Source: Odiellus spinosus (lineage: Eukaryota; Arthropoda; Arachnida; Opiliones; Phalangiidae). Taken from it: 64,000 nt of DNA. Location: the NCBI GenBank assembly GCA_963920705.1, contig OY987239.1, positions 9,143,504 through 9,207,503 on the forward strand, in the 5' to 3' direction. Numbering within the stretch: the stretch's first letter is position 1; every line of letters begins with the position of its first letter. The translations under genes were made by a program, and so were the position numbers. A model generated the notes under the pieces. That model saw only the letters and a program-made list of their open reading frames with translations. It did no database searches and was not told the DNA's origin. Positions 225 to 63,767 of this stretch are shown piece by piece.

Positions 225-285
225 AACTAGGGCTTAAGAAGCTGAAGCATTAAGATATTTAATTTTTTTCATTTGCTGACCCTCG
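225..285 (+). pseudogene. Gene a1 E4, disabled
   Basis: Homologous to the open E4 at 14420-14477. Here GCT-GAA has become GCT-TAA (stop at 235-237), an extra T shifts the frame further on, and the GTAATC donor is missing. Confidence 0.6.
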
Positions 286-3200
286 CACTTTTAAATACGT
301 AACTGTTTTATCTTCAAAACCGCTTGTCCCATGGGGCAAAAAAAAAAGTCAAGATGAGTGGTAGAAGTTTTAACTTTAGTAGAAATGAGAACATTAATCC
401 CTTGTCCTTTTTCTCTGTGTCGTCACTCCAAATTTAAACAATAGAAACCTGTATTTTGTAGGTCTTTCATATGTACATGCAAAGTTCTGTGCCAGCTAGC
501 ACCGAAGCCTTCCATATTTCTCCAGTTTTTATGATCTCAGAAACTAGAATATTTACTGCCATAAATCCGACAAGTTTCGGTGGAACGGCAAGATTCTCAC
601 TGGCAGGATTTCAAGACATAATTTGGATATTAATGGCGATTTTCATCATTGTTTTGTCTATCACTTCTTTGCTTTTCAAGTATTTTATCCAGCGACACTC
701 TCGTCAACGTAATTTCTTGTGTTTTGAATACCTCTTCTTCTATGTGTCTTCGTTATTGCAAAACCGTTAAGTATTGATTTTAAAAATACGAATGCCCCTG
801 AAAGTACCATCGCATAGGACTTGCTCAGGCCCGTCGTCAGGGGGGGGGGGGGGCGGGTGGGCTTGACCCTACCTACAATTTTTCCAAAAATCTTCAAATA
901 TCTTTATGGCCCTACCTGTCATTTCGATGGCCCTACCTGTCATTTCGATGGCCCTACCTGTCATTTCGATGGCCCTACCTGTCATTTCGATGGCCCTACC
1001 TGTCATTTCGATGGCCCTACCTGTCATTTCGATGGCCCTACGTCTCATTTCGATGGCCCTACGTCTCATTTCGATGGCCCTACCTGTCATTTCGATGGCC
1101 CTACCTGTCATTTCGATGGCCCTACCTGTCATTTCGATGGCCCTACCTGTCATCTCGATGGCCCTACCTGTCATTTCGATGGCCCTACCTGTCATTTCGA
1201 TGGCCCTACCTGTCATTTCGATGGCCCTACCTGTCATTTCGATGGCCCTACCTGTCATTTCGATGGCCCTACCTGTCATTTCGATGGCCCTACCTGTCAT
1301 TTCGATGGCCCTACCTGTCATTTCGATGGCCCTACCAGGCTACGTATAAATTCTCTCTAGTTAAAAGATAGAGAAAATATGTTACCCAGCTATAAAAACA
1401 ACGTTTTTGCTGACCTTCCGTAGACGCCAATGCAGAAGTCTCTGAATGTCTAGAGCCTAGAAAATCATATCATTATCCATCATAGCTGCCCAAATACAGG
1501 CCCTCGGGTCGGCTCGGGACCCAAAGTGACCCGCCAACGCATTTAAATTTACCCGGCAACAGCAGCGATCGGCTGCCGCAGTTCCGCCACGCCATTGTGT
1601 CGTGCTGCCAATACCGGCAGCTGCGGGCAGCCGCCACGTTATTGGTTTTAAATAAATAGTACCAAATTTGAAAATTTCTTGTGGTAATACTATTTCGTCC
1701 GAAAATGTGCCCTACCACGGCCCTACCTAAAATTTTAACCTGGCGACGGCCCTGGACTTGCTAGAGAAAAGGTGTCCTTTATCCAAGTATATTTACCCAG
1801 GGTTCGTACACCACCTAAAAAAGTCAGGGAAACTTGCCCTTAAAATAGGCTTAGCTGGATTCATGGAGATCCTGAGTTACTAATTTGACCAATGAGCAAA
1901 GGCCCGTCGTTAAGACGAAATCGCCATGAGATAAAACCTATTTTTATGAACGAAAATCATTTACTCCCCTCTTAATTTACGAACAGAACCCGATGTTTTC
2001 ATTCGACAAAATTCTATCAAATATCTATTAACTGGATGGTTGCTGGCCATGTTTGTTCTGGCAAAGTCGTATTCGGGTATTTTGAAAAGCAAATTGACAG
2101 TCTCGAAATTTTCTCGGATCAACACGCTGCAAGATATTGAACGTAGTCCGGGAACTAAACCACTTCTTAGTTACCCATCTGGCTTTGAGGATTATTTGAC
2201 AAAGGTAACCAATACTGTATTTGAAGACAGAGAAACAGTCCGCTTTTAACAAACCTGGAAATATGACGATATTAGAATGGTCATAAAAAACTCTCCCAAT
2301 GCATGCTAGGACATCCTGTTTCCTGACAAGGGAACAAGGCGGCGTAGGGGGTAGGGAGAATTAACAAAGTTTTTCCGCCAGGTGGCGTAGGGCTTCAAGT
2401 TTCTGTCTCTCTCCTGTGGAGTCCTGAATTCGAAGGGCTCCAACATATGACTATCAAATTAAGCATTCGCCTATAACAATTAAAGCCTGATACGTTAACT
2501 TTCCTAGTTTTCCATCAAAGATCCTAACAATAAGGAAATGATCAAATTGAACTCTGACGCTCATCGTTATAAAGGGTTCTTGACACCATCTTACTTAGAA
2601 ACATTTCCTAATGGAACTGTCAAATACGCGTGGATAAATTCTGTATCAAACGTACAGAATGAGTTAAGAAGCATTCCTGTTATAGATCATCTCAAAAAAC
2701 ACGAGAAAAAAATCTATATTGGCAAAAAAGTTTACTTATCGACCATGGCTGTCATTCCATTTAGCAAAACAGTACCACCACGAATCATGGAAAACGTCTA
2801 TTACTTGTGAGTTTTAATGAATACTTACACGCGAAAGAAGACGTAGCTGGTCCTTTAGTTCGGCATATATAGGGTGTCTCAGAGCTACAATGGGTTCTAT
2901 GGGTCATTTTTGTCGTACAGGGCGCCGTTTAAAGGGAGAATGCAACCTAACAACAAGTGATTTTTTTTATCGATTCCTTATTATTTAAATAGGCCTAATC
3001 CACTATTTAAAAAATTTACAAACAAATATTAAACTAGAAATAAATTTAAAACTTACCCGGAAAATAGGCTTAGTGGGATTCATGGAGCTCCTGATTTCCT
3101 CGCGTGTAAGGTCTAGCGACCAATCGCGCGCGACGTAAGTCTCGTGGAGATCTCGCGTGAACGACGGGCCTTTGCTCATTGGTCGCTAGACCTTACACGG

Positions 3201-4583
3201 ACGAGATTCAGGATCTGCATGAATCCCGCTAAGCCTATTTTTCCGGGAAAGTTTTAAATTAATTTCTAGTTTAATATTTGTATTGTAAACTTTTTATCGG
3301 TGGATTAGGCCTATTTAAACGATAAGGAATCGATAAAAAATCACTTGTAATTAGGTTGCATTCTCCTTTTAAGAGTTACGAAGGAGTCATGCGCGGGTGA
3401 CCACTTAAACCTTAATCGGCGCCCCGTACGACAAAACGTCATAAAAACATTTTCGTCTTAAAATGACCCATAGAACCCACAATAGATTGGTCTTACCACC
3501 ATTTTCGAAACACGCTGTATATTTTAGCAAAAGTCCATCAATTTATTCCATAGAAGTAATCAACGCCATGTAGCTTAATACCATCAAGAAACGTCCTGGT
3601 AAAGGTAGCAGCATGATTTTGATTCTGTCGGTGTAAATAATGAAGGGAGCTCCCCTTTTTAGAGAAATTCCGGAGAGGGGGGGGGGGGAGATAATATATA
3701 GCCAAGCGCGGCCTGCCTAAATTCAGACACTCTCCCGACTCAAAGTATTGTGGAAGAGTCCAAATTAGTCAAGCCAGACAGGGGTGATGACTTTTTTGAC
3801 TTTTAAGTGATGACGTAAAATTGGATAGTATTAGTATCCATTGCAGAAGCCGATGAAACCCTTCTTTGAAGTCTATTACTCCGGGGTCTTGTTTACCCCT
3901 CTCTGTATGGGTTAGTTTTAAAAAGCGCGATTCGTACGCCTCCTAACGTTAGATATTTTCGGAGCGGGAGTTCGTCGAGCGAATATCTCTAGCAGCCTTG
4001 GAGTTCGTCAAAAAAAACGTCGTCGTTTGTGGAGAGAGAGAATTTCCAATTTTCCGTAGACAGGGGGGTATGAAGTAGGACCCCTCTGATCTCGTAAAAT
4101 TGTGAATTTTACCCATACAGAGAGGAGCGCTATATGGAACATTAGAGTAGTAGACTTCAAAGGATGGTTTCATCGGTTTCTGTATATATGGCCTTAAAAC
4201 TACAAAAAAGAAATAAAATGATTTTTGGGAACCCTGCTGGTCTTGTATTTTATACAGAAAACCCTAGCTACGTTAAAATGTATTCGATATATCAGTATCT
4301 GTAGCGTAATTGTGTATATTTGTGCAGGGGTCATAGGTATGTGGAAACCGATCAGGGCACCCGAAACAATCGATTCTGGGATCGTGAATACGGAGAGTGC
4401 TGGGCGCCTGAAAAATTAACCAGTTTGAATTTGGAGAGAGTCATGACAGTTGCGGAATTAATTGTTGTATTTCAAGCTTGGTTGTACGGTATCTCCATCT
4501 CTCTGGCAATATTACTACTCGAACTGCTTGTCTATTATTTTCATTATACAAGCCTGCACATCTCTTATATCAGAAGCCGATGA
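225..4583 (+). CDS. Divergent ionotropic receptor gene a1 (5' part outside window)
   Basis: The visible exons are a broken E4 (225-285), E5 (462-765), E6 (1987-2204), E7 (2508-2806) and E8 (4328-4583). Splice phases are consistent from E5 to E8 (1, then 0, then 2). The product is a ligand-gated cation channel subunit of the IR family, located in the plasma membrane; a chemosensory role is inferred from the family and not shown here. M1, the pore loop, M2 with SYSGILKSKLTV, lobe S2 and the last helix are all recognisable. The E5-E6 intron holds a hAT-like element with a minisatellite, and the E7-E8 intron holds a foldback element and a MITE. The stop codon used by the paralogues is TAT here, giving 12 extra residues. 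E4 has a stop and a frameshift, so a full-length product is doubtful. E1-E3 must lie left of the window; their counterparts in copy a2 are at 31144-31967. Confidence 0.72.
462..765 (+). CDS. IR gene a1 E5: end of S1, M1 and first half of pore loop
   Basis: The acceptor TTTTGTAG precedes GTC TTT CAT ATG and the exon ends C|GTTAAGT, leaving phase 1. It encodes 101 residues. The motif FTAINPTSFGG precedes a hydrophobic helix starting DIIWILMAIF (M1), then a basic loop, then FEYLFFYVSSLLQN, which is the start of the pore loop. Joined to E6 it reads SLLQ-NQPDVF, as in IR pore loops. An in-frame ATG at 471 could start an S1-less product. Confidence 0.82.
826..1754. mobile_element. hAT-like element carrying the 21 bp minisatellite (gene a1)
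   Basis: Ends CAGGCCCGTCGTCAGGGG and CGACGGCCCTG, with GACTTGCT at 818-825 and 1755-1762. The shared site and flank with gene c show that insertion preceded the a/c split. Confidence 0.9.
906..1337. repeat. 21 bp minisatellite, 20 units (gene a1)
   Basis: Unit ATGGCCCTACCTGTCATTTCG, 20 copies and a partial one. Units 7 and 8 read CTACGTCTCATTT and unit 12 has CATCTCGAT. No unit has a stop in several frames, so long open frames here are artefacts. Confidence 0.97.
1838..1935. repeat. Fragment of foldback-family arm in gene a1 intron
   Basis: TAAAATAGGCTTAGCTGGAT, then CCAATGAGCAAAGGCCCGTC, matching inner arm sequence of the foldback element. Similar fragments lie at 15975-16070 and 16780-16880. 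Confidence 0.55.
1987..2204 (+). CDS. IR gene a1 E6: pore, M2 and start of S2
   Basis: The acceptor ACGAACAG is followed by two bases that complete a Gln codon with the last base of E5. The exon encodes PDVFIRQNSIKYL, then the helix GWLLAMFVLAK, then SYSGILKSKLTV, the IR counterpart of the iGluR SYTANLAAFLT motif, then the S2 start INTLQDIERSPG. It ends AAG|GTAACC in phase 0. Confidence 0.86.
2508..2806 (+). CDS. IR gene a1 E7: ligand-binding lobe S2
   Basis: The acceptor CTTTCCTAG leads to TTT TCC ATC AAA GAT, in phase with E6. The exon is 99 codons plus two bases, ending TAC TT|GTGAGT. Features include LETFPNGTVKYAW and KKIYIGKKVYLSTMAVIPFS, the latter matching the late S2 strand (Y-x-A-x-x-K in iGluRs). 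Typical glutamate-contact residues are not evident. Confidence 0.84.
2933..3368. mobile_element. TTAA-flanked foldback element (gene a1 intron)
   Basis: TTAA at 2929-2932 and 3369-3372. Termini AGGGAGAATGCAACC and GGTTGCATTCTCCTT. Nearly the whole element is two inverted arms. The TTAA target suggests a piggyBac- or Kolobok-like transposase. It sits inside an older inverted repeat with TGGGTTCTATGGGTCATTTT arms (about 2868-3530). Confidence 0.85.
3844..4182 (+). mobile_element. MITE-1 copy upstream of gene a1 E8
   Basis: Ends CAGAAGCCGATGAAACCC and CATCGGTTTCTG. Compared with gene c (18987), the left flank TGCATGTTTTTAATATATAT is deleted. Confidence 0.88.
4328..4583 (+). CDS. IR gene a1 E8: end of S2 and C-terminal helix, stop-loss form
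   Basis: The acceptor TTTGTGCAG is followed by G, completing Leu with E7. It encodes GHRYVETDQGTRNNRFWDRE, then SLNLERVMTVAEL, then the final helix LYGISISLAILLLELLVYYF. The paralogues stop with CAT TAA. Here it is CAT TAT, and translation runs on for 12 residues to a TGA at 4581 that lies inside the adjacent MITE. Confidence 0.84.
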
Positions 4584-4908
4584 AACCCTCCTTTAAAGTC
4601 GATTACTCCCGGGTCTTGTCTACCCCTCTGTATGGGTTATTCTCAAAAGGCGCGATTCGTACGCCTCCTAACGGTAGATGTTTTCGGAGCGGGAGTTCGT
4701 CCAGCGAATATCTCTAGCAGCCTTGGAGTTCGTCCAAAAACGTCGTCGTTTGTGGAGAGAGAGAATTTCCAATTTTCCGCTGACAGGGGGGATGAAGTAG
4801 GACCCCTTCTAACTCGTAAAAAAAATTGGGAATTTTACCCATACAGAGAGGAGCGCTATATCGAACATTAGATTAGTAGACTTCAAAGGAGGGTTTCATC
4901 GGCTTCTA
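4571..4908 (+). mobile_element. MITE-1 copy downstream of gene a1, supplying a stop codon
   Basis: CTTATAT on both sides, as in gene c. Its first bases, CAGAAGCCGATGA, supply the last codons and the TGA of the read-through E8 of gene a1. Confidence 0.9.
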
Positions 4909-5665
4909 CTTATATTGAACATCCCATCGATCCAATGAAAATGAAAAACGTAATTATAATATTGTTTACAAGCTCGGTCAACGAAACGGAATAGGAAGTT
5001 TGTTTCGAGTCTGAAGTTTGATCATTATTCTGAATACAAACGTCGGCTTTATTACATTTCGAAACTTATTTTAGTTTTAACGCGGGGAAATGTAGAACAC
5101 CATATTTGCGAAGTTAGCAAGAGTTCAAATTTAATGCTTTGTTTTCTAAATAGAGCTTTTTTTCTGATACACGGCCATGTAATTACATTGTAAATATATC
5201 CGAATATTACGAACATTTGCCAAAGTCGTTGAAAATATTTAATGATTGCGCTGCCATTAATATTATATTTTAATGGTTATAATCATTAATGTTCTAAAAT
5301 CAAATATAAAGTTTATTTCGAGGCTGAAGTTTGATCAGTGTTTAAAATATGAACCTAGGCGTAGTCTTTATTACATTTATAATGGTATTTTAGTTTAAAC
5401 ATGGGAAAATTCTGAAGCACTATGCTTTGTTTCAAAACAGAACTTTTTTTCTGATACACGAACTTGTGTCTTGAAAATATTTAATGTTTGTGCTGGCATT
5501 GATATTATATTTTAATGGTTAGAAATATTATAGAATAGTTAATGTTCTAAATTTAACGTTTAAAACACGCGTATAATGTTATCTTGGCGCATTCGGACAG
5601 ATCTTAGCGTTGGATTCGATACGCATTCGAAATGCTCGAATTTTTATAGCTATAGCATCTATAAT
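4909..5665. other. Spacer between genes a1 and b1 with internal duplication
   Basis: Two diverged tandem copies (about 4995-5305 and 5309-5560) share TTTCGAG-CTGAAGTTTGATCA, TTTTCTGATACACG and ATTATATTTTAATGGTTA. GGACAGATCTTAGCGTTGGATTCGAT follows, a block present before all genes. No gene is seen. Confidence 0.6.
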
Positions 5666-5698
5666 ATGTCGACAGAAAAAATTGAGTTTCGTATTGGC
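5666..5698 (+). CDS. IR gene b1 E1
   Basis: ATG opens MSTEKIEFRIG and the exon ends before GTAAGT in phase 0. It lacks a signal peptide, so a more upstream exon may exist. Confidence 0.5.
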
Positions 5699-8600
5699 GT
5701 AAGTTGAATTGATTAGATTGATTTTATGGAATCCATATCCGTAGTGATTGATCGTGATAATTATTTTAAAACAGGCTTATTATCAAATGTCTCAAAAAAA
5801 TCTTGATGATCTCTTGAGTGGAGTATTTATAAATCAGGACGTGCGTTCCTTTTCGCAATATATCTTAATGAATCTAGCGAATGTTAGGTACGTTCGCATC
5901 CCAAAGTATCTCGTTACTTTTATTCGTTTTATGTTTCTCGTTATCTATTTCTTTACAAGGGTTTGTACCCCAAGATTTCTATTTATTTTATATGCAGAGC
6001 TCGGATTTCCAATAACTTTTGATAATAGCAGAGGTATATAATAACCCCCTTCGGGGGAAGTATGAAAGCCCCTATACTACCAATGCTAAAAATCACGAAC
6101 AACAAAAGCCCGCTGCTGACTATCTAGGCCATTAGCTCGCGCTGTACTTCTCAATGTCGCTACTCTAGTAAATGGTCTTTGTATAAACAAGACGGCTCGA
6201 TTTGTGTTTACAACTTCCTGTCTCGGGAGTCAGGTTGTCTGTTAAAATGGAGTCAAAGGTTGACTTCAGCTCGTAAGTTCCGGAAGTGTGCGTAGGAAAA
6301 ATTTAGTGAGGTGTAACTATTTTTTGGGAGTAAAGCGGTGTGTCGATCCGCCGCGATTTACGGCGGGCACTTGTTGTTCGTCGATTTTGCCTACCTTTCA
6401 TACTTCCCCCGAAGGGGGTTATTATATACCTCTGATAATAGTTACTAATCATAAAAGAGGAGGAGCTTATATTCAAATAAAATATACTGAAAGAATTTAA
6501 AAATAACCTCAATAAGAGAGGTTGTGTTTATCCGTTTGTTGGAAAATATATAGCATAGTTTTAAAGATTATTTTTTAAGGGTGCGAAGCAACCTCTTTTT
6601 TGTATAAAAAACCTATATATGATAACATCAGAAGCCGATGAAACCCTCCTTTGAAGTCTACTACTACTCTAATGTTCCATATAGCGCTTCTCTCTGTATG
6701 GGTAAAATTCCCAATTTTACGAGATGGGAGGGGTCCAACTTCATACCCCCCTGTCTACGGAAAATTGGAAATTCTCTCTCTCCACATACGACGGCGTTTG
6801 GTTGACGAACTCCAAGGTTGCTAGAGATATTCGCTTGACGAATTCCCGTTCCGAAAATATCTACCGTTAGGAGGCGTACGAATCGCGCTTTTTGAAACTA
6901 ACCCATACAGAGAGGGGTAGACAAGACCCGGGAGTAATAGACTTCAAAGGAGGGTTTCATCGGCTTCTGGTAATATTTTCAGATTTATTAGTTCTAAGTT
7001 TAAGTGAGCGTATTTTTCTTGTTTTATATCGTTGGTTGCTTTCTCTGTAAGTAATGTATTATTAACTATTATAGCGTTGTCTATATACCACCGCGACAAT
7101 ATTACAAATTAGGATATACAATGTGGGGAGCTGTGTCAAGGGGAGTAAGTATTGAAATTTAATTATCTCAGAAACCTAGACGACAATACGGAGGAAATAT
7201 ACAAAGGGAGAGCTAGACGTAGCGAAATGGGAACATTTTAAGTGTTTTTTACGCAGGCATACCATTGTCATTTTTCTTTGTCGTCACTCCAAACGCGAAT
7301 TAAAACATTAAAATCTTTTGTTATGTAGATCATTCACATGTTGCTGCAAATTACTTCGACACATGCTTTCAAAAAGTACAATATGTCTCCAGTCTTTAAG
7401 ATTACAGAAATTAGAATATTCACTGTTATAAATCCGACAAGCTTTGGTGAAACGGCAAGATTTTCTTTGGCAGGATTTGAAGACATAATTTGGATTTTAA
7501 CCGCGATTTTTATCATTATTTTGTCTATGACTTCTTTTCTTTTTAAGTATTTTATCAGGCGACACTCTCATCAACGAAGATACTTGTGTTTTGAATACAT
7601 CTTCTTCTTTGTGGCGTCTTTTTTGCAAAACCGTTAAGTATATTTTATAAATAGGAATGTATCCGGGAACGCCCCAGAAAGAACCATCGCTATAAATCTC
7701 GTCGGCCCTTACTTACTTAGGACATGCTTGAGAAAAGGGACCTATTTTATGAAGGCCAATCTTTCACTCCCCTCTTAATTTACGAACAGAACCCGATGTT
7801 TTCATTCGACAAAATTCGATCAAATATCTATTGACTGGATGGTTGCTGGCCATGACTGTTCTGACCAAGTCGTATTCGGGTATTTTGAAAAGCAAATTGA
7901 CAGTCTCGAAATTTTCTCGGATCAACACGCTGGAAGATATTGAACGTAGTCCGGGAACTAAGCTACTTCTTAGACTTACCTCTCCCTCTGAGGAATATTT
8001 GACAAAGGTAACAAATACTCTTATTCGAAGACTAGAGAAACAGTCGGCTTCGAACAAATCTGGAAATGTCACAATATTAGAATGTTTATAAAAAAAACAT
8101 TGAGATATCACATGGACTAGTCTAGGGTATTTATTCAGGGTTGCCAAGGGTCTGGGAAAACAGAGAAAGCAGGGAAAAGTCAGGGAATTTGAAAATGAGC
8201 CAAAAAAGTCAGGGAATTTGAAAATGAGCCAAAAAAGTCAGGGAATTTGAAAATGAGCCAAAAAAGTCAGGGAATTTGAAAATGAGCCAAAAAAGTCAGG
8301 GAATTTTAAAATAGTTTAAAAAGTCAGGGAAAAGTCAGGGAATTTAAAAATCTTTCAAGAAGCCAGAAAATTACAATAATTATCTGCGGAAAAGATTTTA
8401 AGCTGACTGTGACAGTTGTATAGATTAGAACAAAAATATGCGTGCAAAAAGTTTGGCGAACACAATTGCAAAATTTGTAGCGCTTTTTATGAAAAATATA
8501 TCGTCCGAGGAAAATACAGACAAATTAGAATTATCTGAAACGGTCAGGGAAAATCGTTGGAAAAGGTCAGGGAAAATCGTTGGAAAAGGTCAGGGAAAAT

Positions 8601-11600
8601 CGTTGGAAAAGGTCAGGGAAAAACCTGGAAAAGTCAGGGAATTTGAATCTGAAGAAATTGTGGCAACCCTGTTATTGAAAAATACGCGCATGCTGTAGTC
8701 GTGGTCCTAAATGACCTTCCGGAAAGTCACTAAACTTCCTATCTCGGCTTTATCAGTTCGAGGCTTTCCTAAATTCTGCACAGAGAGACTAACGCCTCTA
8801 CCCATACCCTACGGTTGATTATAGCGCCATCTCTGAGTCAGGGATAATATTTGGCTTTGACAGCACCTTCGGCCTTTCCATCCCACGAATATAAAGATAC
8901 CATTAAGCTTGACGAAGACCTTGCGTTATATCCACGCGTTTCTCCTATCAACAAAATTGTCTGGTGGCGTGGTGGCGGGTAATTCCGTCCACTTTGTTTA
9001 TAAATGTGAATATTTAATTTGGGTTGCTCGAATTAAAACGAAAAATTACTTATATTAGACACTGATAAACGCTTCGTCAGAAGAAAAAATATTTCAAGGC
9101 CATTGGGCAAGGTTCGGCTACGTTACGACTATAGTTAAACAAGAAGCAATTTTCTCCCATTAAATTAATGCCAATTTAAGGAAAAGAAGTTTTTTATGGC
9201 TCCGGAAATCAGGATTAAAAACCGTCACGGAAATTGTACAGATACGAACTCGAGAACACGCGAAAACCCAGAACTTTAGCTAGTAAATAGGCATCTCCGG
9301 TCTCATCTGTATCGAATATTAGAAAAAACTTTCGACAGAGGCCAATTCCGTCCACTCGAAACAACGTCAAGTTTAAAGTTAAACGCGAATTTGCGAGCTT
9401 GAAAATCATTGACGATTGACAATTCAATAATTTCAAAGCAGACAGCTCCGTTTTTCCCGCTTTTTTGCGCAGTCTTTCAGGGCTGGAAATATTTTTAATG
9501 CGAATTCAGTATAAAGGGCGGTAATCATGGACGGAAATAAGCACAAGTCACTGGTCATTTGTCCGGTAAATTTTCCAAATGTCCGATAACTTTTTATTTT
9601 TAAGAGGGGGTCACTGGACAAATGTCCGATAGAAAAAAAAGTACTTTTCAATACAGGAAATGTAGCATTGTCCGGTAATTTTGTTAAATATCCGATAACT
9701 TTTGAATTTTTAAAGGGGGTTACTGGACGTTTGTCCAATAAGAAAAATTTCTTATTTCCGTCCCTGGCGGTAATGTTTCGTAACAATACTTTAAAAAAGG
9801 CTTAGAACATAATATGGCGCGGTTTTTGAGTATGTAAAATGGAAGTATGGGTGTTTTAGTCGTCTTTGAAACTGAGTAAAATATTTTTAATTTAATGTTA
9901 AGAACGCGCAATATGTAAATGAATTTTGGTATTTTTTTTAAGCTTTCACAATGGTTGTTTTTATCCAGATAGAGCAAATAGTTGAAAATTTTGGGTTACA
10001 AAGAATAATGTGGCTCTCATTACTCCGTGATTATCTACGGGTGGACGGGTATTACCCGCCACTGGTTGAAATTAGACTCGGGCCGAACGAAATTACTCTT
10101 CTGGACGGAATTGGCCGCGTCGACTGACTTTGAAAAACGTCTCGTATCTTTTAGACCAATCAAAGTTATGGAAAGCAATGTAGTTTAAAATACGCGCTAA
10201 AGTTGAATTTATAAAAAGGTGCCAAAATGGGACAAAGTTAACATTGGGAGAGTTTCCTTGGTGACGGAATTACCACCAACGGCGGACGGAATTACCCGCC
10301 ACCACCATAATTGTTCCAACTATGACTAACAAATTCAACATTCGCCTATAAAAATTAAGTCTGATCCGTTAACTTTCATAGTTTTTAATCAAAGATCCTA
10401 ACAACAAGGAAATGATTAAACTGAACTCTGTCGCTCATCGTTATTACGGATACATGAAAACATCTCACTTAGAAACATTTCCTAATGGAACTGTCAAATA
10501 CGCGTGGATTAATTCTTTAGCAAACGTAAAGATTCACTTAAGACTCAATTATTTCATAAATCATCTTAAAAAACACCAGAAAAAAATCTATGTTGGCAAA
10601 AAAATTTACTTATCGAGCATGGGTGTCATTTTATTGAGCAAAACAGTACCTCAACGAATCATGGAAAACGTCTATTACTTGTGAGTTTTAACAGAAGCCG
10701 ATGAAACCCTCCTTTAAAGTCTATTACTCCCTGGTATTGTCTACCCCTCTCTGTATGGGTTATTCTCAAAAGGCGCGATTCGTACGCCTCCTAACGGTAG
10801 ATGTTTTCGGAGCGGGAGTTCGTCCAGCGAATATCTCTAGCAGCCTTGGACTTCGTCCAAAAACGTCCTCGTTTGTGGAGAGAGAGAATTTCCAATTTTC
10901 CGTAGACAGGGGGGATGAAGTAGGACCCCTTCTGACTCGTAAAATTGTGAATTTTACCCATACAGAGAGGAGCGCTATATGGAACATTGGAGTAGTAGAC
11001 TTCAAAGGAGGGTTTCATCGGCTTCTGACTTTTTTGAAATAAAGTCATAGACTTTTGATTTTTTTAATTTTATTTTTCAACGGCTTCAGGGGGATTAATT
11101 AATTTAATTAGTGCTTCTATAAGTTCCTATAATTTTCCTCTTTTGAGATTTCTTTGGTATTTGCCACTTTCCACTGCATGTTTTTAATATATATATATAT
11201 GCCCAACCAAAAATGAAATAAATTTTTAATTGAGATGACAGTGCCTTAAAACTACAAAAATGAAGTGAAATGGTTTTGGGAACTTGGATCAAGGGTCATC
11301 TTCACTATTTAGATTTAGAATGACGTTTAACTTCATATTTGAAACCTGTATTATAATTTTATTTGTCTTGTCACCCTGTTGGTCTTAACCCTAGCTATAT
11401 TAAAATGTATTCGATATATCAGTATCTGTAGCGTAATTGTGTATATTTGTGCAGGGGTCATAGGTATGTGGAAACCGATCAGGCCACCCGAAATGATCGA
11501 GCCTGGGATCGTGAATACGGAGGTTGCTGCTGGGCGACTGAAAAATTAACCAGTTTGAATTTGGAGAGAGTCATGACAGTTCAGGAATTAATTGTTGTAT

Positions 11601-45467: not shown

Positions 45468-45500
45468 ATGGCGACAGAAAAATTTGAGTTTCGCTTTAGC
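45468..45500 (+). CDS. IR gene c2 E1
   Basis: MATEKFEFRFS, GTAAGT donor. Confidence 0.52.
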
Positions 45501-52115: not shown

Positions 52116-52138
52116 ACAAGCCTGCACATCTCTTATAT

Positions 52139-52474: not shown

Positions 52475-53490
52475 CTTATATTGAACATCCCATCGATCCA
52501 ATGAAAATGAAAAACGTAATTATAATATTGTTTACAAGCTCGTTCAACGAAACGGAATAGGAAGTTTGTTTCGAGTCTGAAGTTTGATCATTATTCTCAA
52601 TACAAACGTCGGCTTTATTACATTTCGAAACTTATTTTAGTTTTAACGCGGGGAAATGTAGAACACCATATTTGCGAAGTTAGCGAGAGTTCAAATTTAA
52701 TGCTTTGTTTTCTAAATAGAGCTTTTTTTCTGATACACGGCCATGTAATTACATTGTAAATATATCCGAATATTACGAACATTTGCCAAAGTCGTTGAAA
52801 ATATTTAATGATTGCGCTGCCATTAATATTATATTTTAATGGTTATAATCATTAATGTTCTAAAATCAAATATAAAGTTTATTTCGAGGCTGAAGTTTGA
52901 TCAGTGTTTAAAATATGAAGCTATGCGTAGTCTTTATTACATTTATAATGGTATTTTAGTTTAAACATGGGAAAATTCTGAAGCACTATGCCTATATTGG
53001 CGAAGTTTTCATACGTTGTATCTTGAAAATATTTAATGTTTGTGCTGGCATTGATATTATATTTTAATGGTTAGAAATATTATAGAATAGTTAATGTTCT
53101 AAATTTAACGTTTAAAACACGCGTATAATGTTATCTTGGCGCATTCGGACAGATCTTAGCGTTGGATTCGATCAGCATTCGAAGAGCTCGAAGTTTGTAA
53201 AACTTTTAGTATTTGTATGAGATCTGATTTATAAAAATATTTTATCCGTTTACTAATTTGCTTAAAATTAGACTATTATATCCAGACATATAGATCTATA
53301 AGAATTCTCAATTATAAAAACAAAATTTAGATAATAATCCTAAAGTCTTCATTTAATTTAGTTAATTTTCTTCAAATTTGAAGTGAATATTTTTTACTTT
53401 TATTAATTCGACAGAACTGAATTTTCTTTTAAAGACTAATATTTTCGAAATCCAGATAATCAAATTTTTGTTTAATTCACTTGACGGAAA
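52475..53490. other. 3' flank of gene c2
   Basis: Unit-2 copy of 20061-21076, AT-rich. No gene is seen. Confidence 0.6.
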
Positions 53491-54990
53491 CAGGGTGACC
53501 ACTTTTCCTATATATCCTATTTTTCCTATATTTTTACCTCCTTCCTATAATTTAATGTCAATTCCTATAATCTCCTATATTTCTACTCAAAATCTCTAGT
53601 TAAAGGAATGGTGCGGTGTCAAAATATTTTTGCTGCAAACCCTTTAGTTAAACTCAAAACCAATTTTTCAAGTGTTAAAAAAATTTAAAATTAAGTATAT
53701 TTTTAAATAAACAATTAAAACAAATTACATTGAGGGCACATAGGCGCCCGTATGAAGCTTTCCTGTAAAGCAAGAGCGCATTCGATACGTCACTTCAAGG
53801 TTTTTATTTCGGCAATAATCTGATTGGCCAAAGTAACTTGGCTCAGCTTTTTACTCAATGGTAAAGTTGACTACTACGCGCTTGAACATTAAATCGACGA
53901 CAGGTTATAACGGCAGTGCTCGCCAGTCTAACGAACGGGACGCCGACTGAAGGAGCATCTAACCCCGGTAAGCTGTAGCCTAGGCCTAACTCCGTCGGCG
54001 ATTCGGACTCTCGGAGAGTATCGTCATGCCGCGAATAGATCCGTTTGAAGTTGAACCAGTGTACACGGAAGAAGAACTTTTAATTAGAGATAGACTACAG
54101 GAAGAGCGGAATAATAATGACGGTATCGAAAATTTAATTGACATAGACCAGATGAAAGAAAATTGCACCTGACAAACTCTGTAATCCAACTTCTTCGTAG
54201 GCAAAGGCTTAGTATAATACGCGGCTTTCACTGTTTCTTTAGCATATTTTAGCCATTTTGACGCGAGTTCGGGGTACTTTAAATGATCAGGAACCGTATA
54301 AAAACTTAGTCCAAACCGAGAACTAAAATTTTTGCATTCTTTTATAATACAACTTGGCATTTTGAACTTTCTTTAAAACAACACCGATTAAAAAACGAAG
54401 GATTCTAGACTTTACTGTCTCAGACTCTCTCCCCTCGGAGTCTCATTTCATTGGTTTATAAGTTATTTCTATTAGCCTATCAGATTGCTAGCCTGGCCAA
54501 GCACGACAGATAAGTTTAGAATTAGGGGCAAAAGGGCCACGTCAATACTAAATTTATTTTTAACTAAAAAATTATTATTATTATTAAAAATTAATTTTGA
54601 GTTATAAATTTCTGTTGCCAAGAGTGCTATTGACCCTTAGAGGCAAAAAAACTTTATGGGTGAACCATTCCTTTAAGGGTAAAGTTCTAAATCATGCTGT
54701 CAGCTGTGGCTGTATAAGATTATTTTAGCTTCACTGTACATTTTCCAGTTAAAATAGTCTGTAAAAGTCCATACTATTTAAGCAATTGGATCATATTAAT
54801 ACCGTGTTTAAACCGGTGGCGAGAGTTTTGAAGCAATAATAAACAAGCTTCTTTTAATTAATTATTTTCATATTTTATCATATATTTTACACTTATATCC
54901 TATATTTTGCATAAAAGTCTTCCTATATTTTCCTATATTTCGCAAAGAAATTTCCTATGTATGATTTTCAAATTTTCAGTGGTCACCCTG
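53491..54990. mobile_element. hAT-like element with captured exons, unit 2
   Basis: Copy of 21077-22576. The THAP exon is at 54169-54360 on the minus strand and the 48 aa frame at 54026-54172 on the plus strand, both unbroken. Confidence 0.78.
54169..54360 (-). CDS. Captured THAP-domain first exon, unit 2
   Basis: Same 64 residues and donor as 21755-21946. Confidence 0.6.
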
Positions 54991-55585
54991 CTAACGAAAT
55001 TTCTTGAAGTTCGGCTCTCACCATTTGTTTAGAATGGCTAAGGATTAATTTTTAGATTAATCATTCAGTATTCAGGATCATAAATATTAACTCTTCTAGT
55101 ACAGACAGGGGTTTTTCAAAATTTGCTTCGATTACTATTTTAAATATAATTAAAAATCTATTTGAACCACCCTGTGTAAGATATCACTTTATTATTCCAT
55201 AAAAACAAACAACGCTTCGTATATTAATACTATCAGCAAAGGTCCAGATAAATGTACCGCCAGATTCTGATTTTAGACACTCTAGCGGTCGGAGTCGCCG
55301 TGTAAATAGTGAATCCGGAAGCGCCACTCTTTGGTGAAATTCCGGAGTTGTGAGGGAAACAATATAGAAATGGGGGCCCCGCCGAAATTCTGTAACTCTC
55401 TCCTGACTTGAAATATCGAGATCAAGAGTCCAAACCACTCGAGAGAAACTTTTGCCTTATTTTAAATGATGGGCTTTTGCTGATAATGTTAAGCTATGGG
55501 GTGCTGTTTACTTTTGTGGAATAAAGTCATAGACTTTTGATACCATAAGTGATTTAATAATTTTTATAGATATAGCATCTATAAT

Positions 55586-55618
55586 ATGGCGACAGAAAAA
55601 TTTGAGTTTCGCTTTAGC
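55586..55618 (+). CDS. IR gene d2 E1
   Basis: MATEKFEFRFS, GTAAGT donor. Confidence 0.52.
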
Positions 55619-58600
55619 GTAAGTTGATTTTGTGGAATCCATATCCGTAGTGAGTGATCATGATAATTATTTTAAAACAGTCTTTGACACAATACTCTCA
55701 AACATTGATCGATAAAATCTTGAGTGGAGTATTTACAGAGCTGAGCGTGCATTCCTACTCGCAATATATCTTAACGAGTCTAGCAAATGTTAGGTATTCA
55801 CATCTCAAAATATTTTGTCACCTTTATTCGTTTTATGTTTCTGGCTATCAATTTCTTTAAAAGGAGCTAGATAGTACCCCATGATTTCTATTTGTTTTGT
55901 ATGTAGAGCTCGGAGCTCGTTTAACTTTTGATGTGTGTGTATATTTGTTGTTAAGATTTCCGCGTTTGTAATTTTCTTGCAACGTGCAAATAATAATTTC
56001 CAGTAGCCCTTAGATCACTCGGGATGATCTTGGTAGTGCCAAGAATCCATTCAGGTTCCATAAGAATATGGGAGCATAGCTTTAGCCTCTGGTACCATCC
56101 TCCCAAACTTTGTAACAAAAATTCGTCCGCAATTTTCGCAACATTTGTACGCTTAGATCTTTTTTCGGTCGGCTCCATTTTTATTACCCAAAATATTACG
56201 TCAAGGTCGTTAGTGGCGCGGGTTAATAATAAATGTCAGGAGCGATTTACTTGAAAAATCGATTCGATGCGGACGAACTTTTGCTTCAAAGTTTGGGAGG
56301 ATGGTTATAGAATCGCGGCCCTCCCATATTCTTATGGAACCAGAATGGATTCTTGGGTAGTGTAGATCTTACCCTGACAGAGATACCTCTCATTTTAAAC
56401 TAAGATAACTTGTTACCAATTTGTAAAGGACAAGCCTTTTCTGGTTTTTCAGTAAACTGTATTGGGGGTGGTAGACAAAGTGAGTTCCACCCTGTATAAT
56501 TCTAATACGAGTGAAAATTAACCTTTTATATATTTGTTTTATTTATCGTTGGTTGCTTTCTCTGTAAGTAATGTTTTATTAACTGTTATAGCGTTGTTTA
56601 TGTATCACCGCGATCATATAAATATCCAGGAAATGCTTTGATTAAGGGAGTAAGTATTGAAATTTAATTATCTCAGAAAACTAGATGACAAACGGAGGAA
56701 ATACACAAAGGGAGAGAAAGACGTAGCGAAATGGGAAGGAACATTTTTGTCTTACGCAAATTATCGACCGGCAATTTTGGGTTTATACATTTATGCAGGT
56801 CGGTATGTCGTGTAGAGTTATGTCATCGACAATGGGTTAATTTGAGATACATTTCATAGATAGGAAGCGACTAAAAGGGTCCATTTGATCGACAAAAACG
56901 AGCCAGCGGGTTGTCCTTTAGTGTTGTTTAAGTCATTTTGTCAGAGCACTAGGGTTTAAGAAGCTGAAACATTAAGATATTTAATTTCTTCATTTGCTGA
57001 CCGGAATCTCTGCTGCTGAACTTGTTCAGTAATCTGACACTTATCTTTAAAGCCAGTGTTTGGTAAAATACTAAATACCTACTCCTACGATAAAGTATTT
57101 AAAATACTTAAAGTATTTTAAAATAATAAATACTTAAAATAGTGTAATTTTATCCTAAATCTGAACGCTTCTGTTTCAGAACACTTTCATTTAAAAATGC
57201 GTAATTTAACTTCGGTCTATTTAAAGATTCCTAAATTTGCTAAAGGAACCACTTCGGCACCGCGAATCGAGAAATAGGTGCCACCAATGGTTTCCCCGGC
57301 CGAATTTACTTAGGGAAAGGCGGAATTAGCTAGCTTGACCCAGTATTTGCGAAGTTATCGACGATTTCCTTTGAAATGAAGATTATTTTATGGTTTCTAT
57401 ACACAAGCAATGCCAAATTTTTAAATCGTCGAAAACTTCGCAAATACAGGCTTGATAGCGCTAATTCTGCCTTTAACTCGGTAAATTGGGCCAAGAAATT
57501 CATTGTTGATGCTCATTTCACGATTCGAGCTGCGCAAGTGGTTCCTTTTTCAAATTTTGGGATTTTTGTATTATAGGCTATAAGATAGTTCAGACTTAGA
57601 AGCAGGGGGCGTTCAGAATTAGAGTCGTTCGTTCAGAAATAGAAGCCGCTACTGCGGTCTTCAAAACCGCCTCCGCGTCAAATGTACGCGTCATGGAACT
57701 ATTCAAACTTGGTCGCTAACAATTCCATGGCAATAGAGATCTCGGATTTCTTAAAAAGCGTTCAGAGATAGTCAACCCTACCCTACCGGCGATAGCCGGA
57801 ATTTTGCAAGCGTGTTTCTTCCGCTTGCATCTTGATGGTGGTTTTTCACGGACCATTTGACTCTTTGATAAATACAGTATTTTCGCTAATAATATTCAGT
57901 TTTTTTTAAATACTAGAAAAAATGTATTTAAAATAAAATACTGAATACATTTATTTAAAAAGTGTTTAAAATTCTACCCAACACTGTTCAAAACCACTTT
58001 TTTCATGGGGTAAAAAATAATAACGTTAAAAGGACTCGTTTTGGGAGAAATAGGACGCCACGTTTTTGGGAGAACTCAGAACTGCTAACTATAGTTGAAA
58101 TGAGAACACTCCCTCGTCCTTTTTCTCTGTGTCGTCACTCCAAACGTGGGCATGCGCGAATTAAAACAATAAAATCCTGTATTTTGTAGGTCTTTCATAT
58201 GTTGATGCAAAATTCTGTGCCAAGTAGTAGCACAGAGTTACATTTTTCTCCAGTTTTTATGATTTCTGAAGCTAGAATATTTACTGCCATAAATCCGACA
58301 AGTTTCGGTGGAACGGCAAGATTCTCACTGGCAGGATTTCAAGACATAATTTGGATATTAATGGCGATTTTCATCATTATTTTGTCTATGACTTCTTTGC
58401 TTTTTAAGTATTTTATCCAGCGACACTCTTATAAACGTAGTTGCTTGTGTTTTGAATACATCTTCTTCTTTGTGGCGTCGCTTTTGCAAAACCGTTAAGT
58501 ATATTTTATAAATTATTTTGCCCCAGACAGTACTATCGCTATAAATCACATCTGTACGTTCGCTTACGTAGGACATGCTTGCGAAAAGGTGTCTTTTATA

Positions 58601-61600
58601 CAAGTATGTTTACTCAGGGAAATTGAAATGGACCCAAAAGGTCAGGGAAATAATTTTTTTGGCGAAAGTTAGTTATTATTTATCGAAGTAAGATCGTAGA
58701 GCCCCTAGCGACATCTAGGTAATAATAATATAGAGATCACGAGTTAAATTTATGATATATTGTTAATTTTAAATTATTAAAATTATTTGACACTTAAAAT
58801 AAATCCTAATTAATTTACACAAAATCTATTCTCGGTTATTAACCTAACATTTATGAATTTTCCGCCTACATTTGAATATCCCGCCCTTTTTACCCTCAAG
58901 AAAGCGACATCTAACGATATTTTTGAAATCAGTACCCCCGCCCCTTTTATTTATTTATTCTAAGGATAGATAAGGCAGTGGCTAGGTAATTTGTCGAAAA
59001 GGATGATACGTAAAACTCGTGGATGGTGTCAGTAATACGTCTATACAAAGCGAAATAATTTCATAGGCACTTTTATTTTTAACATGGACCCGTAAAATAG
59101 GCTTAGTTGGATTCATTGAGTTCCTGAATTTTTTCATAATGGTCAGCGACCAATAGCGAAGGCCCGTCGTTAAGGCGAGATCTCCATGAGACAAAACCTC
59201 TTTTATGAAGGCAAATCTTTTACTCCCCTCTTAATTTACGAACAGAACCCGATGTTTTCATTCGACGAAATTCTATCAAATACCTATTGGCTGGATGGTT
59301 ACTGGCCATATCTGTTCTGACCAAGTCATATTCGGGTGTTTTGAAAAGCAAATTGACTGTCTCGAAATTTTCTCGGATCAACACGCTACAAGATATTGAA
59401 CTTAGTCCGGGAACTAAACCGCTTCTTAGTAGCAAATCTGCTTTTCATGATTATTTGACAAAGGTAACAAATACTACATCTGAAGGCATCGAACAAAAAT
59501 GGAAATATCACGTTATTAGAATGCTCATAAAAAACAAGAACAAATCACGTGAACTAGTACAGGGTATTTATTGAACTAAATACGCGCGAGCGGAAAGTTT
59601 TAGATTCGACTGGAGTCGTGGTCCTAAATGATTTAAACATGCCTAATCCACAATTAAAAAATAACAAAGAAATATTAAACTAGAAATAAATTTAAAACTT
59701 AAACCAAAATTAGTCTTAGCTGGATTTATGGAGATCAGCTGAATTTTTTCAGCGACCAATCAGCAAAGGCGAAATCTTCGTGAGACTTTCGATAATATTC
59801 GATTGGTTGCTGACCTTTCGATAAGAAATTCAGGATTTCCATCAATCCAGGTTCGCTTATTTTCCTGGTTAGTTTTAAATTATTTATTCGTAGTTTGGTA
59901 TTTGTATTTTTTTACAAACACCACAAGGAATCGATAAAAACCTCGCTATTCTTTAGGCTGCATTGTCCCTTTAAGCGATAGATTTTACGAAAATTGAGTA
60001 AGATTGGGTTTCCAAATGTTGTTTGTATAAAACCATAGAAAAATCAATTATTAAAATTAATTTAAAAGAACTTGAAAGATTATCAAGTCGTTTTATACTA
60101 ATTGATCCAACATATGACTAACAAATCTTTCGTAGTTTTTCATCAAAGATCCTAACAATAAGGAAATGATTAAATTGAACTCTGAAGCTCATCGTAACCC
60201 TGGGTTCTTGAAACCATCTCACTTAGAAGCATTTCCTAATGGAACTGTCAAATACGCGTGGATAAATTCTGTATCAAGCGTACAGAATGAGTTAAGAAGC
60301 ATCGCTTTGATAGATCATCTCAAAAATCACCAGAAAAAAATCTACGTTGGCAATAAAGTTTACTTATCGAGCATGGGTTTGATTCCATTTAGCAAAACAG
60401 TACCACCACGAATCATGGAAAACGTCTATTACTTGTGAGTTTTAATGAATACTTACTTACACGCGAAAGGAGACTTATCTAGTCCTCTAGTTCATCATAT
60501 ACAGGGTGTTTCCGAGATACAGTGGGTTCTATGGGTCTATGTTCGTGTGTCGTACAATATAAGGTGGTTCGCTGCTTCGTGACGATAGTGTGATGATGGG
60601 GGAGGTGGGATTAAAAATTGGACTTTTTCGCGTGACATAATTTATGGACAATCCCTTATTCTATAAAAGAAAACAACGCCCCTTATCCTAATACTATCAA
60701 CAAACGTCCTGGTAAATGTGCCGGCTGATTCTGGTTCGGCCACTGATGTCGGTGTAAATAGTGAACGGAGAAAGAGCCACTCTTGGAGAAATTCCGGAGT
60801 TGGGGGGAGACAATATAGCCAAGCGCGGCACGCCTAAATTTTTGGTCTCGAGACAATTCGGTCTCGAGACAGTTTGGGCTCGAGACAGTTTGGTCTCGGG
60901 TCAGTTTGTTGTTTAATTCGTTTTTTAACTTACACCCGAAAATAAAAATGTGTTGAAGAATGGTTAAATGTTTAGAATTTTTGTTATTAATGGTATATAT
61001 TGCTAAAACCTAGCGACTTTCGGCTCTAAACCTCGAAATGGAAGACGCGCTTAAGACGGAGAGAGGGAAAAAGAAAACGACGAAACTGTCTCGAGACCAA
61101 ATTGTCTCGAGACCAATTTGTCTCGAGACCAAACCGCTCCAAGACCAAATCGGCAAGACCAAACTGCCCAAAGACCGAAGGGTCTCGAGACCAAATAGGC
61201 AAGACCAAACTGTCTCGAGACCAAAGCGGTTAGACCAAAGCGGTTAGACCAAATCGGCTAGACCAAATCGGCGAGACCAAATTGACCTGTCCCGGGGTCT
61301 TTAAGTTCCGATAATTTTCCTCTTCCAAGATTTATTTGCGGATTTCCGTTTGCATGTTTTTAATATATATGGCCAACCAAAAATGCAATAAATATTTTTA
61401 ATTATGATGACAGTGCCTTAAAACTACAAAAAAGAAGTGAAATTATTTTTGGGAATTTGGCTCAAGTGTCCTCTTCTTCACTTTTTAGATTTAAAATGAC
61501 ACAACTTCATATTTGAAAGCTATATAATAATGTTCTTGTCTTGTCATATATATCAGGGTTTCTAGCGTAATTGTGTCTATTTGTACAGGGGTCATAGGTA

Positions 61601-61808
61601 TGTGGAAACCGATCAGGGCACCCGAATTAAACGATTCTCTGATCGTAAATACGGAGAGTGCTGGGCGAGTGAAAAATTAACCAGTTTGAATTTGGAGAGA
61701 GTCATGACAGTTCAGGAATTAATTGTTGTATTTGAAGCTTGGTTGTACGGTATCTCCATCTCTCTGGCAATATTGCTACTCGAACTGCTTGTCTATTATT
61801 TTCATTAA
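55586..61808 (+). CDS. Divergent ionotropic receptor gene d2
   Basis: Exons: E1 55586-55618, E2 55681-55793, E3 56677-56802 (intact), broken E4 56947-57004, E5 58190-58493, E6 59246-59463, E7 60136-60434, E8 61589-61808. The encoded exons equal those of d1. The same E4 stop and donor loss block a canonical full-length product. A few substitutions distinguish the introns (for example GCCTAATCC at 59641 against GCCTTATCC in d1, and AAGGTGGTTCG near 60560 against AAGGGGGTTCG). Confidence 0.7.
55681..55793 (+). CDS. IR gene d2 E2
   Basis: Copy of 23267-23379, open. Confidence 0.63.
56040..56355. mobile_element. MITE-2 copy in gene d2 intron
   Basis: Unit-2 copy of 23626-23941. Confidence 0.85.
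56677..56802 (+). CDS. IR gene d2 E3, intact symmetric cassette
   Basis: Copy of 24263-24388, 126 bases, open. Confidence 0.55.
56947..57004 (+). pseudogene. Gene d2 E4, disabled
   Basis: GTT TAA stop and lost donor as in d1. Confidence 0.62.
57054..57986. mobile_element. CAGTGTTTGG element with nested palindrome, unit 2
   Basis: Copy of 24640-25572. Confidence 0.78.
58190..58493 (+). CDS. IR gene d2 E5
   Basis: Copy of 25776-26079, open. Confidence 0.83.
59246..59463 (+). CDS. IR gene d2 E6
   Basis: Copy of 26832-27049; both splice sites intact. Confidence 0.86.
59633..59970. mobile_element. Old degenerate TTAA foldback element, unit 2
   Basis: Copy of 27219-27556. Confidence 0.7.
60136..60434 (+). 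CDS. IR gene d2 E7
   Basis: Copy of 27722-28020, open. Confidence 0.85.
60844..61284. mobile_element. CTCGAGACC repeat element, unit 2
   Basis: Copy of 28430-28870. Confidence 0.68.
61589..61808 (+). CDS. IR gene d2 E8
   Basis: Copy of 29175-29394, ends TAA. Confidence 0.85.
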
Positions 61809-62689
61809 ACAAGCCTACACATCTCTTATATTGAACATCCCATCGATCCAATGAAAACGAAAAACGTAATTATAATATTGTTTACGAGCTCGGTCAACGA
61901 AACGGAATAGGAAGTTTGTTTCGAGTCTGAAGTTTGATCATTATTCTCAATACAAACGTCGGCTTTATTACATTTCGAAACTTATTTTAGATTTAACACT
62001 GGAAAATGTAAAACACCATATTTGCGAAGTCATCAAGAATTCAAATTTAATGCTTTGTTTTCTAATAGAGCTTATTTCTGATACACGCCCATGTAATTAC
62101 ATTGTAAATATATCCGAATACAATGAACATTTGCCAAAGTCGTTGAAATTATTTAATGTTTGCGCTGCCATTAATATTATATTTTAATGGTTAGAAGCAT
62201 TTGTGAATAGTTATTGTTCTAAATTTAACATAACACACCGTATAATAACACGCGTTTAATGATATCTGGACGCATTCAGACAGATCAGTAGCGTTAGATT
62301 CGATCACCATTCGAAGGGTTCCAAGTCTGTAAAATTTTCAGTATTTGAATAAGATCTTCTGATTTATAAAAATATTTAATTCGTCTTCTTATTTTCTTAA
62401 AATTAGACTATTATTGTTTTCGAGTCTTGCGAAAACAGTAGCTAGCTATTTGTGATAGTGCCAAATAAGCTGGGATATTTTCTCTCTTAGAAACTGAGAA
62501 ATTTTTTAGATCTATCATACTATAAAATACAGTATTCAAAATTTTTTAACTCTGGGTTGACGAGTTCTTATGACGTAGTTTATTTGTGGAAGGTAATTAA
62601 CGATAATTAACAATAGGACTTTCTGGATTAAGTAATTTTAGGAAAAAAGATCATTGGAAAGCGACCTTGTCACTGGTGCCAGAATGCTC

Positions 62690-62722
<33 letters not shown>

Positions 62723-63559
62723 GATCGGGACGATGAATATTTACTCTTTTACTACAGACAGGAGTTTTTCAAAATTTCCTTCCATTACTAGGCATACTTT
62801 AAATACCATTTAAAGTCTATTTGAATCACCCTGTATAAGATATCAAAAGTCTCACTTTATTACATAAGAGCAAGAATTCATTCAGGTTCCATAAGAATAT
62901 GGGAGGGCCGCGATTCAATAACCATCCTCCCAAACTTTGTAGCAAAAGTTCGTCCGCATCGAATCGATTTTTCAAGTAAGTCGCTCCTGACATCTATTAT
63001 TAACCCGCGCCACTAACGACCTTGACATAATATTTTGGGTAATAAAAATGGAGCCGACCGAACAAGATCTAACCGTACAAATGTTGCGAAAATTGCGGAC
63101 GAACTTTTGTTACAAAGTTTGGGAGGATGGTACCAGAGGCTAAAGCTATGCTCCCATATTCTTATGGAACCTGAATGGATTCTTGATACGAGTAAACAAC
63201 GCCCCTTATATTAATACTATCAGCAAAGGTCCAGATAAATTTACCGGCAGATTCTGATTCGAGACACTCTAGCGGTCGGAGTCGCCGTGTAAATAGTGAA
63301 TCCGGAAGCGCCACTCTTTGGTGAAATTCCGGAGTTGTGAGGGAAACAATATAGAAATGGGGGCCCCGCCGAAATTCCGTAACTCTCTCCTGACTTGAAA
63401 TATCGAGCTGAAGAGTCCAAACAACTCGAGCCAAACTTTTGCCTTATTTTAAATGATGGGCTTTTGCTGATAATGTGTTGTTTACTTTTAAGGAATAAAG
63501 TTATAGACCTTTGATACCATAAGTGATTTAATAATTTTTATAGATATAGCATCTATAAT
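61809..63559. other. Spacer between genes d2 and a3
   Basis: Unit-2 copy of 29395-31143 with a 31-base poly-T (29 in unit 1) and MITE-2 at 62871-63185. No gene is seen. Confidence 0.6.
62871..63185. mobile_element. MITE-2 copy, inverted, upstream of gene a3
   Basis: Unit-2 copy of 30455-30769. Confidence 0.85.
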
Positions 63560-63767
63560 ATGGCGACAGAAAAATTTGAATTTCGCTTTAGCGTAAGTTG
63601 ATTTTGTGGAATCCATATCCGTAGTGAGTGATCATGATAATTATTTTAAAACAGTCTTTGGGACATTACACTCAAAAACGGATTGAAAAAATCTTGAGTG
63701 GAGAATTTGCAGATAAGGACGTGCATTCATTTTCGCAATATATATTAATGAATTTAGCAAATGTTAG
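63560..63767 (+). CDS. Divergent ionotropic receptor gene a3, first two exons
   Basis: E1 63560-63592 and E2 63655-63767 (113 bases, AG|GTAAGG donor). E2 has six A in the run where a2 has seven, so this copy is in frame. The rest of the gene lies beyond the window and shows that a third a-type gene exists. Confidence 0.65.

Follow-up and report, generated by a model that had tools for sequence, protein, structure and literature searches.

The 64,000-nucleotide stretch analysed here (hereafter the window) spans positions 9143504-9207503 of contig OY987239.1 (C17), chromosome 15 of the harvestman Odiellus spinosus, and is probably part of a young tandem array of divergent ionotropic receptor (IR)-type channel subunit genes. 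The window contains two copies of one block (99.88% identity over 27,997 columns, with 16 mismatches and 5 gap openings), corresponding to a 32-kb cassette of four paralogous genes (A, B, C and D) present twice. An earlier note, made from the sequence, had claimed nine genes sharing one exon plan. Seven genes are indeed complete in the window and two are cut by its edges, but only four are distinct, the paralogues A-D being present twice together with an edge piece. The exon lengths of the plan hold as well, but one exon (X, between E4 and E5) had been missed, and three of the seven complete window genes (A2, C1 and C2) deviate from the plan. The main features, in window coordinates, are as follows.

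3592..31585, no strand: cassette copy 1, main aligned block, pairing with 36018-64000
36018..64000, no strand: cassette copy 2, main aligned block, pairing with 3592-31585
462..4583, plus strand: gene A1, 3' part; E5 462-765, E6 1987-2204, E7 2508-2806, E8 4328-4583; E3, E4 and X upstream of the window; genome copy intact
5666..11677, plus strand: gene B1, intact, 419 aa; E3 5666-5698, E4 5775-5887, X 7075-7144, E5 7329-7632, E6 7790-8007, E7 10382-10680, E8 11455-11677
within 13055..19701, plus strand: gene C1, exons E3-E5; E3 13055-13087, E4 13150-13262, X 13788-13845, E5 14654-14957
within 13055..19701, plus strand: gene C1, exons E6-E8; E6 16930-17145 without the usual acceptor AG (exact end 9160648 on the contig), E7 17634-17932, E8 19482-19701
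16117-16267, plus strand: truncated E6 copy in gene C1
23172..29394, plus strand: gene D1, intact, 414 aa; E3 23172-23204, E4 23267-23379, X 24178-24235, E5 25776-26079, E6 26832-27049, E7 27722-28020, E8 29175-29394
31144..37009, plus strand: gene A2; E3 31144-31176, E4 31239-31352 (one extra A, frameshift), X 31759-31816, E5 32629-32932, E6 34072-34289, E7 34593-34891, E8 36754-37009
35691..36017, minus strand: retroelement-like insertion in A2, of short interspersed element type by eye, poly-T at its low end, flanked by CGTCCTGGTAAAGG
38079..44090, plus strand: gene B2, intact, protein identical to that of B1; X 39488-39557
45468..52115, plus strand: gene C2, E6 acceptor lost as in C1; X 46201-46258
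55586..61808, plus strand: gene D2, intact, protein identical to that of D1; X 56592-56649
63560..63767, plus strand: gene A3, 5' part; E3 63560-63592, E4 63655-63767 (113 bp, in frame); remainder past the window; genome copy intact

Exons were located by pattern scans written from the expected exons with AG/GT borders, which bore out the lengths previously given (33, 113, 304, 218, 299 and about 220 bases); both motifs claimed are present in the sequence. E3 (33 bp), E5 (304 bp) and E7 (299 bp) keep their length at all eight places; E4 has 113 bp at seven of the eight and 114 bp in A2 (31239-31352), E6 has 218 bp at six of the eight, the two window C genes having lost the usual acceptor AG through a 5-base deletion, and E8 has 220, 223 or 256 bp, stop included. 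The pore-loop motif is completed by joining E5 to E6, as had been stated, LLQN and QPDVF being brought together in frame. The exon chain as first given was nevertheless untranslatable, since the phase 2 end of E4 does not match the phase 0 start of E5. The frame is restored by the overlooked seventh exon X, which has 58 bp in A, C and D and 70 bp in B. In four of four paralogues (A3, B1, C1 and D1) no other stretch between E4 and E5 qualifies under criteria that were set after X had been seen (AG...GTRAG, 30-200 bp, 1 mod 3, open). The modelled genes thus have seven exons and encode proteins of 414-426 aa, and AG/GT is found at all junctions of the plan in 16 of the 20 genes modelled, the other four being the C genes without the E6 acceptor. 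Parts of the plan recur in two further genes of C17: gene F, at 6.86 Mb (2.3 Mb off), has X (58 bp), E5 (304), E6 (218), E7 (299) and E8 (220), with no E3 or E4 seen within the 7 kb examined, and in gene G, at 0.82 Mb, the same patterns located E4 (113), X (70), E6 (218) and E7 (299) but none of the other exons.

The reading of these genes as being of the ionotropic-receptor type is supported by Lig_chan matches and by topology. Checked against PF00060, the spliced proteins A, B and D score 43.8, 42.3 and 38.8 bits (cut-off 30.8), one chromosome 8 relative also exceeds the cut-off, and six of six aligned family members match at E-values up to 0.1 (best 4.4e-12). The chromosome 8 relatives show 32-36% identity, and a family profile that includes them matches GluA2 in the PDB (E 6.7e-7), aligned from before the first transmembrane helix (M1) through M3; the profile matches among those listed (60 of 112) are AMPA and delta receptors. 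An hhalign comparison with GluA2 gave 84.5% probability over D residues 84-223, with pore and gate aligned. The topology, with three hydrophobic segments (hydropathy peaks of 2.73, 1.34, which is weak, and 2.12 at residues 121, 183 and 386 of gene D), a pore loop and a gate (SYSGILKSKLTV), fits the ionotropic glutamate receptor (iGluR) superfamily, and the sizes and layout fit a two-part ligand domain (S1, S2). The gate motif reads SYSG(I/V)LKSKLTV in A, B and D. Asn169 of D is placed by hhalign at the Q/R position of GluA2; six of six members share this Asn as well as Pro171-Asp172.

Several results speak against an assignment to this superfamily or against the completeness of the gene models. 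A single-sequence PDB search gave nothing significant (best E 0.49), and a three-member profile without the chromosome 8 relatives reached only E 0.16 in the PDB and 8.9% with hhalign; the significance in the PDB is owed to the inclusion of these relatives. A PF10613 genome search (150 of 197 candidates scored) listed 105 matches, none of which falls within the array; among these matches the first ligand lobe thus goes unrecognised at the sequence level. At the N-terminus, no upstream first exon common to A, B, C and D was found in a search limited to GTRAG donors, A3, A6, D5 and a0 (a damaged gene of the array) each giving candidates of their own, and E3 opens with ATG; inspected by eye, the modelled start MATEKFEFRFSS shows no hydrophobic segment. 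This leaves two options: a first exon whose donor site is weak, or export of the N-terminal lobe by the first helix. E3 can also be read in another, hydrophobic frame (in C: MIFIDIASIIW...), but this reading was dropped, as it runs into stops within E4 of B, C and D. No match came from a large protein database, searched with single proteins and with profiles. A PF00060 genome search listed 77 matches (150 of 314 candidates scored), none of them in the array; this search runs exon by exon, so that a split domain is easily missed.

The AMPA and delta receptors among the PDB matches could suggest that the array encodes iGluR-type subunits used in the nervous system or elsewhere rather than chemoreceptors. 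We consider this highly improbable. Read by eye against GluA2, the glutamate-contact positions appear replaced (the S1 Arg is replaced and the S2 Glu has become Ser), in parts that hhalign did not align. An amino-terminal domain (ATD) has almost no space upstream of B, where 1,082 bases separate the stop of A from E3 and are reached by two plus-strand frames of at least 80 aa (4412-4717 and 4584-4871). Rapid species-specific expansion is moreover typical of divergent IRs (PMC2924276; PMC6938034). The first of these sources describes IRs as lacking some or all glutamate contacts; in most of them the N-terminal region measures about 200 aa and has no homology to an ATD (PMC2924276). The array proteins have only some 120 aa ahead of the first helix, so that the N-terminal region that this source describes for most IRs is either absent or unmodelled (PMC2924276). 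The family is likely to be IR rather than iGluR.

A genome search revealed further copies on both flanks of the window. The array comprises 21 genes over about 170 kb, without gaps, within a 178-kb region (C17:9124001-9302000) that has no N. The gene order is a0, D0, A1 B1 C1, D1 A2 B2 C2, D2 A3 B3 C3, D3 A4 B4 C4, D4 A5, D5 A6, that is, four D-A-B-C cassettes, two D-A pairs and the one damaged gene, a0. The cassettes are 31.1-32.4 kb long, and their long blocks are 99.4-99.9% identical pairwise (best pair 99.92% over 33,379 bp), with tail pieces, including D5-A6, down to 97.7-98.2%. The tail genes A5 and A6 are patchworks of A-like and C-like sites, which suggests that A and C genes have exchanged sequence. 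A 1.9-kb inverted repeat with arms 99.8% identical lies between A5 and D5 (C17:9277751-9282499).

Such high identity between long blocks could also arise if the cassettes were an assembly artefact, for instance haplotypes placed in tandem, the animal having a single cassette. This is very unlikely: the cassettes number four, not two, the 178 kb contain no N, and the sites of A5 and A6 are partly A-like and partly C-like. Gene A2 alone carries the 0.33-kb insertion with its 14-bp flanking duplication CGTCCTGGTAAAGG, and empty sites are present in A1 (9147096), A3 (9211678) and A4 (9242780, one base changed). A minisatellite also varies in copy number between A1 (20.5) and A2 (16.5), although the two window C genes agree at 17.5. 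Finally, the publication of the O. spinosus assembly describes HiFi reads, a quality value of 60.6 and the purging of haplotypic duplicates (PMC11503004). The insertion restricted to A2, the minisatellite differences and this published quality indicate that the array copies are most likely real.

Among the 20 genes modelled (a0 was excluded from the intactness count), 14 are open over their full length with AG/GT at six introns each (D0-D5, A1, A3, A4, A6 and B1-B4), encoding six distinct proteins (D0=D5; D1=D2=D3; D4; A1=A3=A4; A6; B1-B4). A2 is broken by an additional base in E4 and A5 by a premature end at codon 377, the usual E6 acceptor is missing from C1-C4, which are not counted among the 14, and a0 is short of about 77 bases of E7 (222 of 299 remain). 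These losses, together with the failure to find a signal-peptide exon, would be expected if an IR-like gene had been duplicated in tandem in one burst, leaving copies that are mostly decaying into pseudogenes with little present function. The 14 intact genes argue against such decay, as does gene C1, which would keep an open frame of 424 aa through all its exons if spliced at an AG lying 32 bases upstream (before 16898), 11 residues then replacing one in the pore loop (C1 only). The C genes were at first read as plain pseudogenes, and this was dropped for C1 since the upstream AG keeps the frame open.

Divergence between the paralogues bears on the same alternative. Nonsynonymous (dN) and synonymous (dS) divergence was estimated by the Nei-Gojobori method, E6 of C being excluded from the A-C and D-C codon counts and from the intron-flank counts. 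Whole-gene dS/dN values are 0.19/0.17 (A-B), 0.12/0.10 (A-D), 0.18/0.17 (B-D) and 0.043/0.009 (A-C). In E3, E4 and X together they are 0.32/0.39 (A-B), 0.18/0.19 (A-D), 0.17/0.39 (B-D), 0.10/0.18 (D-C) and 0.071/0.006 (A-C), so that dN there exceeds whole-gene dN in A-B (0.39 versus 0.17), A-D (0.19 versus 0.10) and B-D (0.39 versus 0.17). Decay would fit the dN/dS of 0.88-0.95 between A, B and D. It fits less well with the pair B-D, in which 190 changes over 411 compared codons include no stop: in simulations, 95 neutral changes per lineage passed without a stop in 1.3% and 2.1% of cases, which makes neutral evolution unlikely. The length changes between the B and D proteins are whole codons, and A-C shows a synonymous excess (10 versus 7 changes, p 0.0014). 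We therefore regard a mostly decaying array as rather unlikely.

The reading frames are preserved, and some pairs show rapid change in the first ligand lobe. The alignable part of the intron flanks differs by 0.126 (A-D), 0.22 (B-D) and 0.246 (A-B), windows with fewer than 60 aligned bases or more than 35% divergence being dropped. In B-D, first-lobe nonsynonymous sites have changed more than three local intron windows (Fisher test, p 1.9e-7); the site counts in the Fisher tests (240/807, 155/46) are rounded estimates and the three windows were hand-picked. These comparisons make positive selection on the first ligand lobe likely, though not proven. Three observations count on the other side: the first-lobe excess of nonsynonymous over synonymous change in B-D is not significant (Fisher test, p 0.057), the first lobe gives a dN/dS of about 1.0 for A-D and of 0.08 for A-C, and relaxed constraint is also a possible source of the whole-gene ratios between A, B and D. 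The proteins B and D diverge by 27%, compared with 0.1% for DNA between cassettes at the youngest. E8 has the lowest dS among A, B and D (0.02-0.05), a value compatible with gene conversion at the 3' end.

In the proposed domain layout, the short first half of the ligand-binding domain would be formed by E3, E4, X and the start of E5, the first transmembrane helix and the pore loop by E5 and E6, the gate helix by E6, the second half of the ligand domain by E6-E8 and the last helix by E8. Judging from the family, such ATD-less IR subunits would join co-receptor subunits in chemosensory neurons to form cation channels gated by a ligand, whose binding would close the two-lobed domain and open the pore. 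Unequal crossing-over between near-identical copies would multiply the cassettes, and the fastest change of A, B and D in the first ligand lobe would be expected if they were tuned to different ligands. A fuller scenario is conceivable, to which we would give only a minor chance: harvestmen would have evolved their own large receptor family of IR-like subunits of about 415 aa, without signal peptide, with an Asn at the pore apex and a Lys in the gate; the four-gene cassette would have been amplified intact, so that the dose of differently tuned subunits increases jointly, with the first ligand lobe under positive selection and gene C adding 11 pore-loop residues via the upstream AG.

Relatives of the array genes are numerous elsewhere in the genome. 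The D protein as query gave 110 matches (101 of 694 candidates scored), two on C4, five on C8 and all others on C17, and the chromosome 8 relative gave 119 (117 of 759 candidates scored), on many contigs; these are exon-level matches and lower bounds, possibly including pseudogenes. Clusters with an S1 recognisable by PF10613 were listed on C2, C11, C14 and C15. Tandem clusters with PF10613 matches are located at C11:4.75-4.82 Mb, C15:12.89-12.96 Mb and C2:14.30-14.38 Mb, and are apparently other IR/iGluR expansions. Several long copies of mitochondrial COX1 are also present in the array-bearing nuclear chromosome (C17, at about 3.13, 3.14, 4.38 and 4.39 Mb). In a comparison by COX1, the nearest of at least 120 matches listed was that of another harvestman, Oligolophus tienmushanensis (98%).

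The window contains several other repeats and open reading frames (ORFs). The minisatellite, with a 21-bp unit (ATGGCCCTACCTGTCATTTCG, 16.5-20.5 copies), is located at 906-1336, 15116-15483, 33075-33421 and 47530-47897, in the E5-E6 intron of the window A and C genes; it is open in several frames and thus produces long spurious ORFs. Self-complementary repeat arrays of the GGTCTCGAGACC type lie between E7 and E8 of gene D (28427-28868 and 60841-61282), and the E6-E7 intron of gene B contains a 29-bp (8175-8331) and a 23-bp (8537-8641) tandem repeat, with second copies about 32.4 kb on. Upstream of gene D, a minus-strand ORF (21572-21958; second copy 53986-54372) gave, for the first copy tested, a THAP-domain match of 1.5e-4 and 22.9 bits (Pfam cut-off 23.9), and is perhaps a transposon remnant. 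ARAGORN detected no tRNA in the window.

Among the titles listed in searches of open-access full text, none concerns a study of ionotropic receptors of Opiliones, and the array appears to be undescribed there. It is ordinary in kind and extends what the earlier note had claimed. The array clearly illustrates a way in which arthropods can multiply ion-channel genes, here probably chemical sensors, and make them diverge: its gap-free sequence, with copies of several ages, shows amplification, exchange, decay and ligand-domain change together, and it provides exact gene models whose exons of 33 and 58 bases can easily be overlooked by gene finders.

Compared with GluA2 and delta receptors, the array proteins have no ATD, an Asn at the Q/R site by alignment, a Lys in the gate motif and glutamate contacts that are apparently lost. 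They are homologous to the AMPA receptor GluA2 and to delta receptors (PDB 9mrk, 9nwq) from before M1 to M3, with the same arrangement of pore and gate. With the divergent IRs of protostomes, as described by Croset et al. (2010, PMC2924276), they share the Lig_chan core, a divergent ligand domain, the lack of an ATD and species-specific expansion, but differ from what is described there by their seven exons and 33-bp first coding exon. A further parallel is Campodea augens, for which PMC6938034 reports 2,431 IRs, with 901 (37%) of the 2,424 mostly intronless ones being pseudogenes. Both families are very large, young and contain pseudogenes, whereas the Campodea genes are, according to that source, mostly intronless and in many cases scattered, and those of the harvestman are multi-exon and amplified as a four-gene cassette (PMC6938034).

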